A stretch of 39,153 nt of DNA, from the IMG/VR virus record IMGVR_UViG_3300044714_000085, positions 1 to 39,153 of that record; one strand, written 5' to 3'. The notes beneath the pieces were generated by a model that made no database searches, was not told the origin of the DNA, and saw only the letters and a list, made by a program, of their open reading frames with translations. Origin of the DNA: a virus. Numbering within the stretch: position 1 is the stretch's first letter; every line of letters starts with the position of its first letter. The position numbers and the translations under genes were made by a program. Shown in pieces: positions 324 through 39,026 of the stretch.

Positions 324-347
324 ATGCTTGATGGATGCTCCAAGCAT
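324..347. repeat. Inverted repeat between initiator and downstream gene
   Basis: The heptamers ATGCTTG (324-330) and CAAGCAT (341-347) pair with a 10-nt loop. The structure sits right at the stop codon of the replication initiator and before the next leftward gene. No T-run follows on the minus strand, so it looks like an intercistronic hairpin for mRNA processing or stability rather than a terminator. Function is inferred. Confidence 0.4.
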
Positions 348-1477
348 CAAAATTGCCTAGGAGCTGCAAGGGGCTTCCCATATCTATCGATAGGGAATTC
401 CAGAAAACTGCTCAACTTTTCGATCCAAAGGCGCGGCCTGTCGGTCCACACTACGGCACCTTCTTGGGCAGACATGCTGCGATGCTTCAAGCATTCCTTG
501 AGCATCTCCAAAGTGAAGTCTGGAGTGGCTTTCAGAAAAGCATCTAGTTTCTTCGCTTCCGATCCGTCCCACGGACACCTTCCGGCCTGGGGATTAACAG
601 CTCCCCACCACGCCTCTATCTCGCTCCTGAAAGCAGCATGGCGAGTATCTACAAGCTTATCGGGTTTTGATGGATGCAACCCGTTTGTGACTCCATGAGC
701 AATCTTTTTCTTAGTGGTCATAGACGAATCGATAGGGATTAGAAGGCCCGTAGCCTCACCTGACTCTTCCGAACGCACTGGTGAGGCGTTTTTGGCTGTT
801 TCGCCTTTTGTTTTCTTTTGGATATCGGGCGCTGTTGGCCGGATGTTCGGGACCGGATCGCCGAAAGGGGGAGGGGGGATTAAATCCCCTTCGACCGAAC
901 GTAGTGAGGGAGAAGAAGAAATACCCGAAGGTGAAGGGGTTGGATTTTGGTTGGAGGTTTGGTTGGAGGTTTGGTTGGAGGTTTGGTTAAGCAAAATTGG
1001 CAAAACAGGCATGTCTTTGCTTTTTATTCGCTTATTTTGATGTTCATCTGGCTCTTGTGAGCCATTGCCGATTGCGGAGGTTGAATCAATGGTTATAGCT
1101 TTGGTTCGATTTTGCTTAAGCAAAAGTGGATTGCCGCCTTTTTTGCCTGCTTCGACTCTGATTTTGCGGATTTTCTCGTCCTTGACCATGCGCCTGGAGT
1201 AGATCGCGCCGGTTTCGGGATCGCGGCTGGCCACACCAAAATCGAGCAGCGTGGTTAGGGTTTTGCTGAAGGTTTGGTTATCCAAACCCAAAAGCCTAGC
1301 AATGGTCTCGTCTGACATGGCGCGACCGTTAAGTATAAGAACGCCACGGACTTCCGAGTCGTGCATGAAGTCCAGCATCTCGCGCCAAACACCTCTGTCG
1401 TGATAGCTGAGGGATTGCACACCGACATCCTTGCGCCAGTCCCCGGTGTACCACTGGAACGCCGGCATCTTTGCCAT
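347..1477 (-). CDS. Phage replication initiation protein (DUF1376/lambda O-like architecture)
   Basis: This is probably the initiator that binds the phage origin and recruits the helicase loader. Residues 8-110 (FQWYTGDWRKDVGVQSLSY onward) match the N-terminal pattern of phage replication proteins of the DUF1376/winged-helix type. Residues about 112-265 are a low-complexity linker rich in Asn, Gln, Pro and Ser that contains four NQTS-type units near 164-177. The C-terminal domain (about 275-370, with WWGAVNP and CPWDGSEAKKLDAFL) is the likely helicase-loader contact. The ATG follows the RHH stop by 2 nt, so the two genes are co-transcribed and likely coupled. The linker DNA carries the candidate origin repeats, as the lambda O gene carries its origin. 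A DnaC/IstB-type loader at 33584-34327 is the natural partner. The replication role is from family resemblance; the exact family is less certain. Confidence 0.75.
   Translation of the reverse strand: MAKMPAFQWYTGDWRKDVGVQSLSYHDRGVWREMLDFMHDSEVRGVLILNGRAMSDETIARLLGLDNQTFSKTLTTLLDFGVASRDPETGAIYSRRMVKDEKIRKIRVEAGKKGGNPLLLKQNRTKAITIDSTSAIGNGSQEPDEHQNKRIKSKDMPVLPILLNQTSNQTSNQTSNQNPTPSPSGISSSPSLRSVEGDLIPPPPFGDPVPNIRPTAPDIQKKTKGETAKNASPVRSEESGEATGLLIPIDSSMTTKKKIAHGVTNGLHPSKPDKLVDTRHAAFRSEIEAWWGAVNPQAGRCPWDGSEAKKLDAFLKATPDFTLEMLKECLKHRSMSAQEGAVVWTDRPRLWIEKLSSFLEFPIDRYGKPLAAPRQF
946..995. repeat. 12-bp iteron array inside the initiator gene (candidate origin)
   Basis: Three perfect tandem copies of TTTGGTTGGAGG lie at 946-957, 958-969 and 970-981. 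They are followed by a fourth half copy that merges into TTTGGTTAAGCAAAA (982-996). On the coding strand they give the NQTS repeats of the initiator linker. A T-rich stretch (about 787-830) lies about 120 bp away and could be the unwinding element. By analogy with lambda O this is a candidate replication origin. The repeats are seen; the origin role is inference. Confidence 0.6.
1110..1125. repeat. 16-bp perfect palindrome, copy 1 (initiator gene)
   Basis: TTTTGCTTAAGCAAAA is a perfect palindrome lying in the linker-coding part of the initiator, encoding LLKQN on the minus strand. The same 16 bp recur at 1499-1514 and imperfectly at 982-996 and 1577-1591. A related inverted repeat, GGTTTGG-4-CCAAACC, is at 1271-1288. 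It is a likely protein-binding site that belongs to the origin cluster. Confidence 0.6.
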
Positions 1478-1479
1478 GG

Positions 1480-1758
1480 CTACTCACCTACGGATGGATT
1501 TTGCTTAAGCAAAATTGAGGCATTGTTGGGAGGAGTGCTTGACGGAATGCTCGGAGCATTGCTCGGAGGATTGCCATTTTGGTTAAGCAAATCCAACCAA
1601 CCAGGCGTATCCAGGACCTTCTGAGCGACTTGCTGAGCTGCCTCGCGCACGAAGGTGTTGAAGGGAATCAGGCGATGATCTGCCGCGCGCTTTATCAACT
1701 CGATCTGTTCCCGGTCTCTAAAGCGGATGCTGATTTGTGGTTTTTTTGTGGTTGACAC
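1480..1758 (-). CDS. Ribbon-helix-helix DNA-binding protein
   Basis: This 92-residue protein is probably a small DNA-binding regulator or replication accessory. The N-terminal 50 residues (ISIRFRDREQIELIKRAADH, then LIPFNTFVREAAQQVAQKV) show the strand plus two helices of Arc/CopG/MobC-type RHH proteins. The C-terminal 40 residues are a Pro/Ser/Asn-rich tail whose DNA holds a 16-bp palindrome. The start is GTG at 1758-1756, because there is no in-frame ATG. The best leftward -10 ends only 8 nt before this GTG, so the message would be leaderless. It is followed 2 nt later by the initiator. A role binding the adjacent promoter or the palindromes is inference. Confidence 0.7.
   Translation of the reverse strand: MSTTKKPQISIRFRDREQIELIKRAADHRLIPFNTFVREAAQQVAQKVLDTPGWLDLLNQNGNPPSNAPSIPSSTPPNNASILLKQNPSVGE
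1499..1514. repeat. 16-bp perfect palindrome, copy 2 (RHH gene)
   Basis: This is an exact second copy of TTTTGCTTAAGCAAAA, lying in the 3' end of the RHH gene and again read as LLKQN. An imperfect copy, TTTTGGTTAAGCAAA, lies at 1577-1591. Repeating the same DNA in the same frame in two unrelated proteins points to selection on DNA. Confidence 0.6.
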
Positions 1759-30405: not shown

Positions 30406-31257
30406 ATGAAAGATGAACCGATATGCGAATTCAGCCCGGCCTACGGCATGGGCTTGACCTCAATCCTCGCAGCCGAGCAGCAGGCGCAGATGGGCATCAC
30501 CAACGCGGCGCTCGACATCCTCACCGGCACGAAGACGAATTTTCTTGAAGAAATCATCGATGAAAAGGTGATTGAAGATTGCGAGATCAACAACGCCTGC
30601 CATGCAGGATTGAATTGGCTTAAAGCGACACCGCGAACCTATACCGCTCTGCGCGAAAAAAGTATTGACTGGTATCAATGGCTCGCTCGCCAGTCAACTC
30701 TTGCAGCGGTGCTGGAGAAGCTGGCGCTGGACTCGGATGCCGACGTTCGGATGTGCGTGGCGCAGAACGCCCAGGTGCCCGCAGCGGTGCTGGAGAAGCT
30801 GGCGCTGGACTCGGATGCCTACGTTCGGAGGGGAGTCGCGCAGAACGCCCAGGTGCCCGCAGCGGTGCTGGAGAAGCTGGCGCTGGACTCGGATGCCTAC
30901 GTTCGGAGGTTCGTCGCGCAGAACGCCCAGATGCCCGCAGCGGTGCTGGAGAAGCTGGCGCTGGACTCGGATGCCTCCGTTCGGATGTGCGTGGCGCAGA
31001 ACGCCCAGGTGCCCGCAGCGGTGCTGGAGAAGCTGGCGCTGGACTCGGATGCCTACGTTCGGAGGGGAGTCGCGCAGAACGCCCAGGTGCCCGCAGCGGT
31101 GCTGGAGAAGCTGGCGCTGGACTCGGATGCCGACGTTCGGAGGTTCGTCGCGCAGAACGCCCAGGTGCCCGCAGCGGTGCTGGAGAAGCTGGCGCTGGAC
31201 TCGGATGCCGACGTTCGGAGGAAAGCGAAAAAAGCGCTGAAGGCGCTCGGGCAGTAA
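30406..31257 (+). CDS. LRV-type repeat protein (seven 26-residue repeats)
   Basis: The 283-residue protein has a unique N-terminus (1-100, MKDEPICEFSPAYGMGLTSI onward). Seven tandem units of the form PAAVLEKLALDSDA-x-VR-xx-VAQNAQV follow and end in a basic cap (KAKKALKALGQ). The units match the leucine-rich-repeat-variant (LRV) consensus and should stack into a curved helical solenoid, a protein-binding surface. Only three positions per unit vary freely: Y, D or S before VR, and the two residues after it. The gene has its own promoter and is preceded by a terminator, the layout of a moron. It is possibly a host-interaction or anti-defence protein. No partner can be named. Confidence 0.7.
   Translation: MKDEPICEFSPAYGMGLTSILAAEQQAQMGITNAALDILTGTKTNFLEEIIDEKVIEDCEINNACHAGLNWLKATPRTYTALREKSIDWYQWLARQSTLAAVLEKLALDSDADVRMCVAQNAQVPAAVLEKLALDSDAYVRRGVAQNAQVPAAVLEKLALDSDAYVRRFVAQNAQMPAAVLEKLALDSDASVRMCVAQNAQVPAAVLEKLALDSDAYVRRGVAQNAQVPAAVLEKLALDSDADVRRFVAQNAQVPAAVLEKLALDSDADVRRKAKKALKALGQ
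30703..31248 (+). repeat. Seven tandem 78-bp direct repeats
   Basis: Units begin with GCAGCGGTGCTGGAG at 30703, 30781, 30859, 30937, 31015, 31093 and 31171, exactly 78 bp apart. They are nearly identical at DNA level. The variable codons run MC, RG, RF, MC, RG, RF, RK, so three units (234 bp) were duplicated as a block. Such identity implies recent amplification or ongoing gene conversion. Confidence 0.95.
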
Positions 31258-31261
31258 TCGT

Positions 31262-31285
31262 CCGCTGCGCCTTCAGCGCAAGCGG
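31262..31285 (+). promoter_or_regulatory. Stem-loop between LRV and ASCH genes
   Basis: CCGC-T-GCGC (31262-31270) pairs with GCGC-AA-GCGG (31276-31285) around CTTCA. There is no T-run. It precedes the SD (AAAGGAAAG) of the ASCH gene and again shows the hairpin-before-SD layout. Confidence 0.35.
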
Positions 31286-31308
31286 CCACAACCGTAAAGG
31301 AAAGAATT

Positions 31309-31758
31309 ATGAACATACCTTGCCTGAGTCTCTGGCAGCCATGGGCCAGCGTCATCTTCGCCATTGACCCCGAGACGAAGACACCGGCCAAGATCGACGA
31401 GACGCGCGGGTGGCCCACCCACCTGCGCGGCCTGATAGCGATCCACGCGAGCAAGCATCCCGTGGGAGCCGATGACCAGCGTTACTACGGGCGCGAGGTT
31501 CACCGGCTGGGCTTGCAGTTCAGCTCCATGCCCTTCGGCAAAATCATCGGCACCGTGGAGCTGGTGAACTGCCGCCGCACGGTGGCCGTGGTACCCACCC
31601 GCAGCGATGCCCAGCTCTTCTGGGGCAATTACGAAGAGATCGAGGACGGCAAGCGGCGCTACGCCTTCGAGCTGCGCAACCCCGTGCTGCTCCCCGAGCC
31701 GATTCCGTTTGTGGGACGGCAGGGATTCTTCAACGTGGAGCTGTCAGACGCCCACTAA
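31309..31758 (+). CDS. ASCH-domain protein
   Basis: The 149-residue protein shows the ASCH fold pattern. LSLWQPWASVIF (6-17) is followed by an ETRGWPTHLRGLIAIHASKH segment (31-50), FGKIIGTVELVNC and a C-terminal GxxAFELRNP with GRQGFFNVEL. ASCH domains are PUA-like RNA- or nucleotide-binding barrels, and some are amidohydrolases or RNases. Phages often carry them. AAAGGAAAG lies just upstream of the ATG. It follows the LRV gene and starts a run of small early-type genes. The specific substrate is unknown. Confidence 0.8.
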   Translation: MNIPCLSLWQPWASVIFAIDPETKTPAKIDETRGWPTHLRGLIAIHASKHPVGADDQRYYGREVHRLGLQFSSMPFGKIIGTVELVNCRRTVAVVPTRSDAQLFWGNYEEIEDGKRRYAFELRNPVLLPEPIPFVGRQGFFNVELSDAH

Positions 31759-33341: not shown

Positions 33342-33587
33342 ATGAGCTTTAACAGCAAGTGTCTGGAGTTAGCGAGGTACTTCCTTGACGGCGTGGACAA
33401 GGAATTACCGGAAGATTCGCCGGTAGTCGTCTACACCGCCGAAAACATAGACCGGCTGGCCCAAGTGATTCAGGATGCAATCGAAGATGAGATTGACAAC
33501 CTGAAAAATCCCAAGCCAAGCGGCCCACCAATGCCTGAGCCATCGCCGACCGGGACGCGCCAGTTTGTAAGGGAGCCGGAGCCATGA
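33342..33587 (+). CDS. Hypothetical 81-residue protein
   Basis: The protein starts MSFNSKCLELARYFLDGVDK. It has a helical, acidic N-terminal half (with TAENIDRLAQVIQDAIEDEI) and a Pro-rich C-terminus (SGPPMPEPSPTG). GAGGAG precedes the ATG. It overlaps the helicase loader gene by 4 nt (ATGA), so it is coupled to it. Function unknown. Confidence 0.6.
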   Translation: MSFNSKCLELARYFLDGVDKELPEDSPVVVYTAENIDRLAQVIQDAIEDEIDNLKNPKPSGPPMPEPSPTGTRQFVREPEP

Positions 33588-34327
33588 CCGAGGCCGTGTC
33601 ATGCACCATCTGCAACGATCAGGGCTTTTTGCGAACTGAAACAAAAAGCATTAGAAAATGTATCTGCATTCAGGAGCGAGAAGTTCGCTGGCGGGTGGCG
33701 CGCAGCGGGATTCCCGTAGGCTATGAGGGCGCGAGCTTCGAGCGCTTCCAAGCACAATCCTTTACCCAGCGCGCGCTGCTGATGGCGCGCCGCTTCACTG
33801 AGAGCTACCTGCCTACCAATGCTCTGGGATCGGAGCCACGGGGCATTCTCTTCACCGGCAGCGTGGGCACCGGCAAGACACACCTTGCCGTAAGCATCCT
33901 GCGTGCCGTCATCATCGAGCGCGGGGCCGATGGCATCTTCGTGGACACACGAGACATGCTGGCCAGGCTGCGGGCGAGCTACGGCCAGGACGCCACCGAG
34001 AGCGAGTTCAGCATCTTGCAGCCGTTGTTCAAGGCAGACATCGTGGTGCTGGATGAGCTGGGCGCGGTGAGGCCGAGCGACTGGGCTTTCGAGATGACCG
34101 AGCTGGTGATTGGAAAGCTGTACAGCGCGAACAAGGCGGCCATCGTGACCTCAAACTTTCCGAACGCCGCACCGGGCGGCACCAGCTCACAAACAGGCTA
34201 CGAACGCGCCGCGCGGCAGGAGACGCTGGGAGACCGGATCGGCGCGCGCATGTGGAGCCGACTACAGCAGATGTGTGTGCCCGTCGAAATGATCGGACCG
34301 GACTTCAGAGTGGGGGGAAGAAAATGA
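33584..34327 (+). CDS. DnaC/IstB-like helicase loader ATPase
   Basis: This AAA+ protein should load the replicative helicase at the origin. The 247 residues carry an N-terminal zinc motif (CTICNDQGF, then KCIC, about 7-29) as in DnaC-type loaders. Walker A is GSVGTGKTH (92-100), Walker B is IVVLDELGAV (about 151-160), and a sensor 1 region is AAIVTSNFPN. The protein ends DFRVGGRK. It is coupled to both neighbours by ATGA overlaps. The initiator at 347-1477 is its likely partner. The host helicase is the expected client since none is seen here. Confidence 0.85.
   Translation: MTEAVSCTICNDQGFLRTETKSIRKCICIQEREVRWRVARSGIPVGYEGASFERFQAQSFTQRALLMARRFTESYLPTNALGSEPRGILFTGSVGTGKTHLAVSILRAVIIERGADGIFVDTRDMLARLRASYGQDATESEFSILQPLFKADIVVLDELGAVRPSDWAFEMTELVIGKLYSANKAAIVTSNFPNAAPGGTSSQTGYERAARQETLGDRIGARMWSRLQQMCVPVEMIGPDFRVGGRK
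34302..34320 (+). repeat. 19-bp SD-bearing repeat, copy 1
   Basis: ACTTCAGAGTGGGGGGAAG covers the end of the helicase loader and the SD of the next gene. It recurs exactly at 34682-34700, covering the end of that gene and the SD of the one after. As a result both proteins end in FRVGGR plus K or R. Confidence 0.75.
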
Positions 34328-38236: not shown

Positions 38237-38321
38237 GGTACGGGCGAACCCGCTTGGAGCTGTTGCTCCCGGTGCAACAGCTATGCTATCAGCAGCTCTG
38301 TTTCCAGCTTCATCAGGGATT
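38237..38321. repeat. 85-bp direct repeat, right copy (native clamp-loader 3' end)
   Basis: This copy is in its native context: it holds the last codons and stop of the clamp-loader gene (38281-38321). An AGCTGTTGC/GCAACAGCT hairpin (9-bp stem, loop ACCGGGA) and the GCGGGTTCGCCCGTACC leader box follow. The second copy at 37273-37357 carries the same three parts. Confidence 0.9.
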
Positions 38322-38943
38322 CGCGCACGTTGTTGTTGGACTCTTTCACCAGCCGGGCGAAGTTGGGCGCTGGGGCATCCGCAGGCGCTTCCGTCCGCCA
38401 GATGCGCTCCAGCAGCTCCGCAGCTTCCTTTGCGATGCCATAGCTGGAGAATTCGACCGTGCGCAGGCGTGAGAGAAAGCGCGGTTCCAAGCGGTCACTG
38501 GAGTTGCACGTAAAGATGAAGATGGTGTTGGGTGGGAAGTTTGTACTGTCCAACTTGGAGAGCAGCGCCACTTGCGCGGCATCGGTCATGCGGTCCGCTT
38601 CATCCACCAGCACCAGATGGAAGCCACCGCGCAAGGGTATGTACTGGCAGGTTTCGCGTACCTGTTCGATGTTGGCAAGGTTGCACTCCTGCGAGGGGAT
38701 GTGATGCAACTCCGCGTTCATCAGCTCTGTGAGCGCAAGGGCCATCGTTGTTTTACCCGTGCCAGACGGCCCGATGAACAACCACGCGGACTCAAAGGGC
38801 CGGGCGGCAAGGCGAGAGCAGATGCGTTTGGGTTTGTCCAGCCCCACGAAGGCGTCAATCGTGTGCGGCCTGTAGCGTTCGGTGAGAGCGGCGGGGAACG
38901 CGAAGCCGGACTGCTGGGTGGGAGCTGCAAAGAGAGTGGACAT
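38281..38943 (-). CDS. Clamp-loader-like AAA+ ATPase (RFC-small/gp44-type)
   Basis: This 220-residue AAA+ protein resembles sliding-clamp loader ATPases. TERYRPHTIDAFVGLD (21-36) is the RFC box-like start. Walker A is GPSGTGKT (58-65), Walker B is HLVLVDEAD (109-117), sensor 1 is FTCNSSDRLEP (144-154), and an SRC-like LSRLRTVEF follows. The start MSTLFAAPTQ at 38943 has AAAGG about 10 nt upstream; an in-frame ATG at 39018 would put the promoter inside the gene. The usual C-terminal collar domain is short or absent. No phage clamp or polymerase is seen here, so it may serve host or distant phage factors. It heads the leftward operon. Confidence 0.8.
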   Translation of the reverse strand: MSTLFAAPTQQSGFAFPAALTERYRPHTIDAFVGLDKPKRICSRLAARPFESAWLFIGPSGTGKTTMALALTELMNAELHHIPSQECNLANIEQVRETCQYIPLRGGFHLVLVDEADRMTDAAQVALLSKLDSTNFPPNTIFIFTCNSSDRLEPRFLSRLRTVEFSSYGIAKEAAELLERIWRTEAPADAPAPNFARLVKESNNNVRESLMKLETELLIA

Positions 38944-38948
38944 TGGAA

Positions 38949-38987
38949 TCACCTTTCGAGTGGTACGGGCGAACCCGCGTTGAACAT
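38949..38987 (-). other. Leader with UUCG hairpin and 12-codon uORF before the clamp-loader gene
   Basis: The leader contains GCGGGTTCGCCCGTACC, which folds into a CGGG-UUCG-CCCG hairpin, a very stable tetraloop type. A short frame, MFNAGSPVPLER and stop, spans it and ends 5 nt before the real start. The box recurs at 38237-38254 and 37273-37290, before other leftward genes. Translation of the uORF is not shown; no SD is obvious for it. Confidence 0.45.
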
Positions 38988-38996
38988 CTGAGAGCG

Positions 38997-39026
38997 AGTA
39001 TGCGCCGCGCGTGGCCAACGTGTCAA
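38997..39026 (-). promoter_or_regulatory. Sigma-70-type promoter of the leftward clamp-loader operon
   Basis: On the minus strand TTGACA (39026-39021), an 18-nt spacer and CATACT (39002-38997) form a fair sigma-70 promoter, 54 nt before the clamp-loader start. The TTGACAC start is shared with the promoters at 1752/1795 and 30351. Transcription would begin just before the uORF. Confidence 0.6.

Follow-up and report, generated by a model that had tools for sequence, protein, structure and literature searches.

A cluster of short palindromes and direct repeats lies within two coding genes at the left end of the window (the whole 39,153-base IMG/VR virus record analysed here). Going by sequence comparison and analogy, this segment is very probably the phage origin of replication, bound by the initiator encoded in gene A, with a layout like that of lambda O and especially that of pSK41. 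The sites, their selection as DNA, their tie to this initiator family and their exchange in sister clades are apparent from the sequences compared. We infer an in-gene origin because the initiator has a RepA-like predicted fold and because pSK41 and lambda have in-gene origin layouts.

The two genes, A and B, abut on the minus strand. In a profile search the gene A protein matched the replisome organizers of PHROG 13246 (E 2.8e-9, residues 30–126). Its AlphaFold model comprises a confident winged-helix domain (residues 11–112), a disordered linker (residues 113–254) and a C-terminal helical end that is poorly modelled and of low confidence. The gene B protein scored 20.3 bits against Pfam TacA1, just under the 21.0 cut-off. 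Elsewhere in the window, a DnaC/IstB-like ATPase is a candidate helicase loader that may act with the gene A initiator, and an AAA clamp-loader-like protein is encoded at 38281–39018. No terminal repeats, which could have indicated circularity, were found in the 39,153-base window. A sigma-70 promoter scan of positions 300–2000 gave no match. Beside the candidate origin region, a divergent gene (1805–2305) encodes a Holliday-junction-resolvase-like protein (PHROG 190, E 2.5e-25). An inverted repeat, TTGACAC...GTGTCAA, occupies 1753–1795 between the divergent genes (1758 / 1805) and is a possible operator of the ribbon-helix-helix protein. A 78-bp tandem repeat at 30703–31221 (6.7 copies, 94% identity) is contained in an open frame (30678–31367) without a Pfam match.

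Table 1. Genes, sites and neighbouring elements in the window.
Feature	Position	Strand	Basis
Gene A, initiator (replisome organizer): winged helix, disordered linker, helical end	347–1477	-	PHROG 13246, model, RepA structure matches
Gene B, ribbon-helix-helix protein (TacA1-like), tail with two sites	1480–1758	-	Pfam TacA1, E 5.4e-4
DnaC/IstB-like ATPase, candidate helicase loader	33584–34327	+	Pfam IstB_IS21, E 1e-12
Perfect 16-bp palindrome TTTTGCTTAAGCAAAA, gene A, directly after GGNP (position conserved in relatives)	1110–1125		Exact match
Perfect 16-bp palindrome TTTTGCTTAAGCAAAA, tail of gene B	1499–1514		Exact match, simulations
Inverted site TTTGGTTAAGCAAA, gene A linker	982–995		Inside two-mismatch palindrome copy 981–996
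Inverted site TTTTGGTTAAGCAAAT, gene B	1577–1592		Two-mismatch palindrome copy
Inverted site TTTGGTTATCCAAA, gene A winged-helix coding region (LGLDNQ)	1273–1286		TTTG-N6-CAAA scan, codons fixed in relatives
12-bp direct repeats, coded as NQTS repeats	938–988	-	4.3 copies, 95% matches
Element adjoining repeats: CCAACCCCTTCACCTTC (927–943) and pyrimidine tract (911–921)	911–943	-	Codons fixed in relatives
A+T-rich stretch between sites	1016–1047		A+T of 30-mers

When up to three mismatches to the palindrome were allowed, four matches were found against 0.05 expected, a number reached in 0 of 100 shuffles. Inverted sites of the form TTTG-N6-CAAA number five in the whole 39-kb window, all of them in a 610-bp stretch at 982–1591. 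The 7-bp half-site AA[G/C]CAAA (AASCAAA) occurs 23 times in the 39,153 bases, and 14 of these 23 copies fall at 946–1591. The tandem array, with three perfect 12-bp copies of GGTTGGAGGTTT at 949–984, amounts to four AACCAAA half-sites spaced by 12 bp (946, 958, 970 and 982), which is also the commonest half-site spacing in relatives. The three tandem repeats, the two perfect palindromes and the degenerate copies described in the first-pass annotation were thus all recovered. Its placing of the sites in low-complexity linkers does not hold for the site at 1273, which lies in DNA-binding-domain coding sequence; gene A carries sites both there and in the disordered linker. A 12-bp tandem unit, TGCTCGGAGCAT, and a palindrome, AATGCTCGGAGCATT, were also seen at 1547–1574, between the two gene B sites.

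The element adjoining the repeats is a candidate opening site. Relatives write PTPSS almost invariably as CCA-ACC-CCT-TCA-TCT, so that codon constraint reaches this neighbouring element, and the serine tract uses TCA or TCT at 412 of 447 positions, versus 34% elsewhere. The T-rich stretch noted earlier as lying nearby corresponds to the A+T-rich stretch between the sites; the 30-mers at 1017–1021 are 73% A+T and form a candidate unwinding tract. In relatives of sets 1 and 3, codon fixation runs past LGLD[N/K]Q into LTTTLTT (about 1240–1290 in the window), where threonine is almost always ACC; this hints at a further constraint at the DNA level.

The proposal that the DNA and not the peptide is selected was borne out by comparison with related phages, in which the sites are kept as a word with fixed codons, in other reading frames, and as other palindromes in sister clades. 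Set 1 relatives were retrieved by a peptide pattern outside the motif. Set 2, the MALRDQPYLPLY-type proteins, came in part from a search with the pattern LKQK[DYF]KQ; this skews the peptide and not the codons. The peptide L[L/V][K/N]Q is present in 88 of 142 non-redundant related initiators and is spelled TTG-[C/G]TT-AA[G/C]-CAA in 85 of the 88, relatives sharing ancestry so that such counts are not independent events. Where this peptide follows GGNP in set 1, the codons are TTG (43/43), CTT (29/29), GTT (14/14), AAG (16/16), AAC (25/26) and CAA (41/41); elsewhere in the same genes TTG is used at 19%, CTT at 19%, GTT at 32%, AAG at 51%, AAC at 61% and CAA at 60%. At the LGLDNQ site, relatives have GAT in 58 of 59 cases and CAA in 59 of 59. 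Across the 142 initiators the lowest-entropy codon columns are nearly all in or beside the sites, whose background is a median share of 0.55 for the most frequent codon of a conserved column.

Synonymous shuffling, in which the peptide and each gene's codons were kept, gave 1.7 expected cores in set 1 against 51 observed, and 0.9 in set 2 against 33 observed. Genes A and B of the window have four cores, with 0.17 expected on synonymous shuffling. When the peptide was kept and codons followed genome usage, two cores were reached in 0 of 5,000 simulations for gene A and in 0 of 20,000 for gene B. The three frames of the palindrome read LLKQ, FCLSK and a third with a TAA stop. In the window the palindromes lie in-frame in two unrelated genes and both read LLKQN; this common frame, pointed out in the first-pass annotation, is real but is weak evidence alone because one frame holds TAA. 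The half-sites of set 2 occur in every one of the three frames (158, 146 and 19 cases), both in the winged-helix coding region (YGxILLKQKDKQ) and in the linker. The set 2 linker uses the TAA-frame with TTTTGCTCAAGCAAAA or TTTGCTAAAGCAAA, so that translation gives FAQAK or FAKAK and avoids the stop. This three-frame reading is decisive between DNA and peptide. Judged from the codons and frames compared, the conclusion holds that the repeats are kept by evolution as DNA and not for the peptide.

The exact word falls mostly in initiator genes. Among 2.9 million viral contigs scanned, the exact palindrome was found at 59 loci; at most of these an initiator-like gene reads it in-frame as LLKQ[K/N], with 26–62% G+C in the surrounding stretches. 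A scan allowing any base at two symmetric core positions served as a built-in control: the CG core, which is the exact word, lies in initiators at 7 of 8 loci, whereas other cores, including palindromic ones, lie in unrelated genes. Relatives with the same word were found in contigs of Hymenobacter, Verrucomicrobiota, Acidobacteria, Nitrospiraceae and Burkholderiales genomes (43–64% G+C around the locus). Sites in relatives are confined to the initiator gene, at a density of 5–7 per kb versus 0.1–0.9 in the flanks. Half-sites upstream of the initiator gene in four set-2 loci and in contig L398 are scattered and look like background. Among named phages and plasmids, a 63-nt element from a relative had no DNA match, the set-2 protein had no match, and distant protein matches to the window initiator came from only two phage records.

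Other palindromes stand in for the word in sister clades. The AAGGTT clade (20 loci) has changed both places in the gene: its linker carries AAGGTTAACCTT, read as KVNL, and its winged-helix region carries AAGGTTATCCTT, read as KVIL. The density of AAGGTTAACCTT-type palindromes in their clade is 5.46 per kb in the gene versus 0.107 in the flanks; members include the initiator genes of L415, L430, L439 and L457. Comamonas/Cupriavidus-type relatives carry AAGGGGGG...CCCCCC (7.3 per kb versus 0.2), and in L378, L381, L384, L388, L389 and L395 these inverted repeats stand in the linker in place of AASCAAA. In some set 2 phages both clusters carry AAACAAA or NGGCAAA, which leaves the peptide unchanged in one frame but not in the other. 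A concerted AAG-to-AAA switch in set 2 went in the expected direction and was not significant on the tree, which has too few supported branches. The arms covary over all sets: 26 of the 41 distinct cores have a complementary outer pair, where 16.0 were expected, and 0 of 2000 shuffles reached this number. Taken by themselves, sets 1 and 3 gave no significant covariation, since the variable arm position accepts both G and C.

The earlier claim that the array extends into a second gene stands for this phage species only. The two palindromes of gene B are beyond chance, and they are kept in contig L053 (98% identical here) despite a 12-bp indel between them; L053 has one TGCTCGGAGCAT unit fewer than the window. 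Among the relative loci compared by tblastn, gene B was detected in no phage species but this one, represented by the window and L053; the other relatives retrieved have the sites without a recognisable gene B. No comparable cluster was found upstream of the initiator in other relatives of sets 1–3, and the extension is therefore peculiar to this phage species.

Among solved structures, the predicted winged-helix domain best matched RepA initiators (PDB 4pql, 4pt7, 5kbj and 4pta), with moderate Z-scores of 8.7–7.5 over 83 residues at 12% identity; the matches include a Rep-DNA complex. In pSK41, four Rep boxes in the central part of rep are bound by the N-terminal domain of Rep; the C-terminal domain binds primase, and the linker that the Rep-box region encodes is not required (PMC5703833). 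Like such RepA_N plasmid initiators, gene A has predicted binding sites in mid-gene and a linker coded by candidate origin DNA; its modelled N-terminal winged-helix domain may be of the RepA type, and a separate C-terminal part is modelled with low confidence. Unlike them, gene A comes from a phage and not a plasmid, and further sites of this phage lie in the winged-helix coding region and the neighbouring gene. Neither the window protein nor 12 relatives had the RepA_N profile among their Pfam matches up to E 1.

In lambda, the middle of O contains the iterons and an A+T-rich tract (PMC7466680). The candidate origin is similar in having iterons inside the initiator gene, inverted symmetry and a candidate opening tract nearby. 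Lambda has four 19-bp iterons, whereas here 7-bp half-sites are arranged in 14–16-bp palindromes and 12-bp direct repeats, the sites reach beyond one cluster and one gene, and the A+T-rich tract does not adjoin the repeats. The O-like PHROG match was weak for the window protein (0.0022) and reached 3.5e-24 for the relative L238, and Phage_rep_O was absent among the Pfam matches of the window protein. The comparison with lambda O made in the first-pass annotation was fair, but pSK41 is closer. By PHROG assignment gene A belongs with the replisome organizers of PHROG 13246 and the DUF1376-like phage proteins, which have a similar N-terminal domain, and its protein scored 16 bits against DUF1376 (PF07120), where the cut-off is 30.1. 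A search of the open literature, with few subscription journals and preprints, turned up no report of an origin, or of a conserved palindrome, embedded in genes of this family. No earlier description of the motif itself was found there either; in-gene origins are already known from pSK41 and lambda.

We infer initiator binding, dimer geometry, DNA opening, helicase loading and origin activity as follows. The gene A protein would use its winged-helix domain to bind the half-site AA[G/C]CAAA; a dimer would probably occupy the inverted pairs TTTG[C/G]TTAA[G/C]CAAA, with further subunits on the direct half-sites at 12-bp spacing. The complex may then strain the pyrimidine or A+T-rich DNA beside it, and the helicase could be brought to the opened strand by the initiator's C-terminal part together with the phage DnaC-like loader. 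The site array appears to have spread also into the tail of the upstream gene B in this phage.

Many initiators repress their own genes, and the sites lie inside the operon. They could thus be operators through which the initiator or the ribbon-helix-helix protein represses the replication operon, with replication starting elsewhere; this is improbable, as the sites are hundreds of bases into the coding region and not at the operon start, and the 12-bp-spaced arrays and the conserved pyrimidine element look origin-like. The sites may also have a double role, as operator and origin. With their direct and inverted arrangement, the 7-bp half-sites are reminiscent of the heptads of ribbon-helix-helix proteins, and gene B is adjacent; a partition or plasmid-maintenance site bound by its product is nevertheless very unlikely, since the other relatives compared have the same sites without a recognisable gene B, and no ParA was seen among the window genes checked.

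The recurrence of the peptide in many relatives could suggest that LLKQN/NQTS is selected as a functional protein motif and that the DNA repeat is a by-product. The codons are fixed, however, the same DNA word appears in other frames and as other peptides, and the unrelated gene B protein carries it too; codon fixation and frame changes led us to reject this explanation, which has hardly any probability left. A mobile or recombinogenic palindromic element spread through coding regions would fit copies in two unrelated genes, and gene conversion could give concerted change of copies. Its chance is just as slight: the units are only 7 bp and in different frames, and it was rejected because all five inverted sites fall in the one 610-bp stretch and the sites of relatives stay in initiators.

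The origin reading can be extended, tentatively, to a large, host-diverse group of initiators that would carry their own binding site in the coding sequence of the DNA-binding domain and a second time in the linker, so that protein and site would pass on as one unit and shift specificity together; in this phage the array would have colonised a second gene, whose ribbon-helix-helix product might compete for the sites or regulate them. A clean test is possible because synonymous recoding separates the origin from the protein. The strong purifying selection that acts here on the DNA of coding regions distorts codon- and peptide-based inference for these genes, and if the origin reading is true, the apparently conserved GGNP-LLNQNPTT-VKQNPTPSSSS linker is largely a disguised origin. 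The origins of many uncultured phages would then be readable directly from sequence, and the family would be a natural experiment in which a protein and its binding site change together, with the site inside the protein's own gene.
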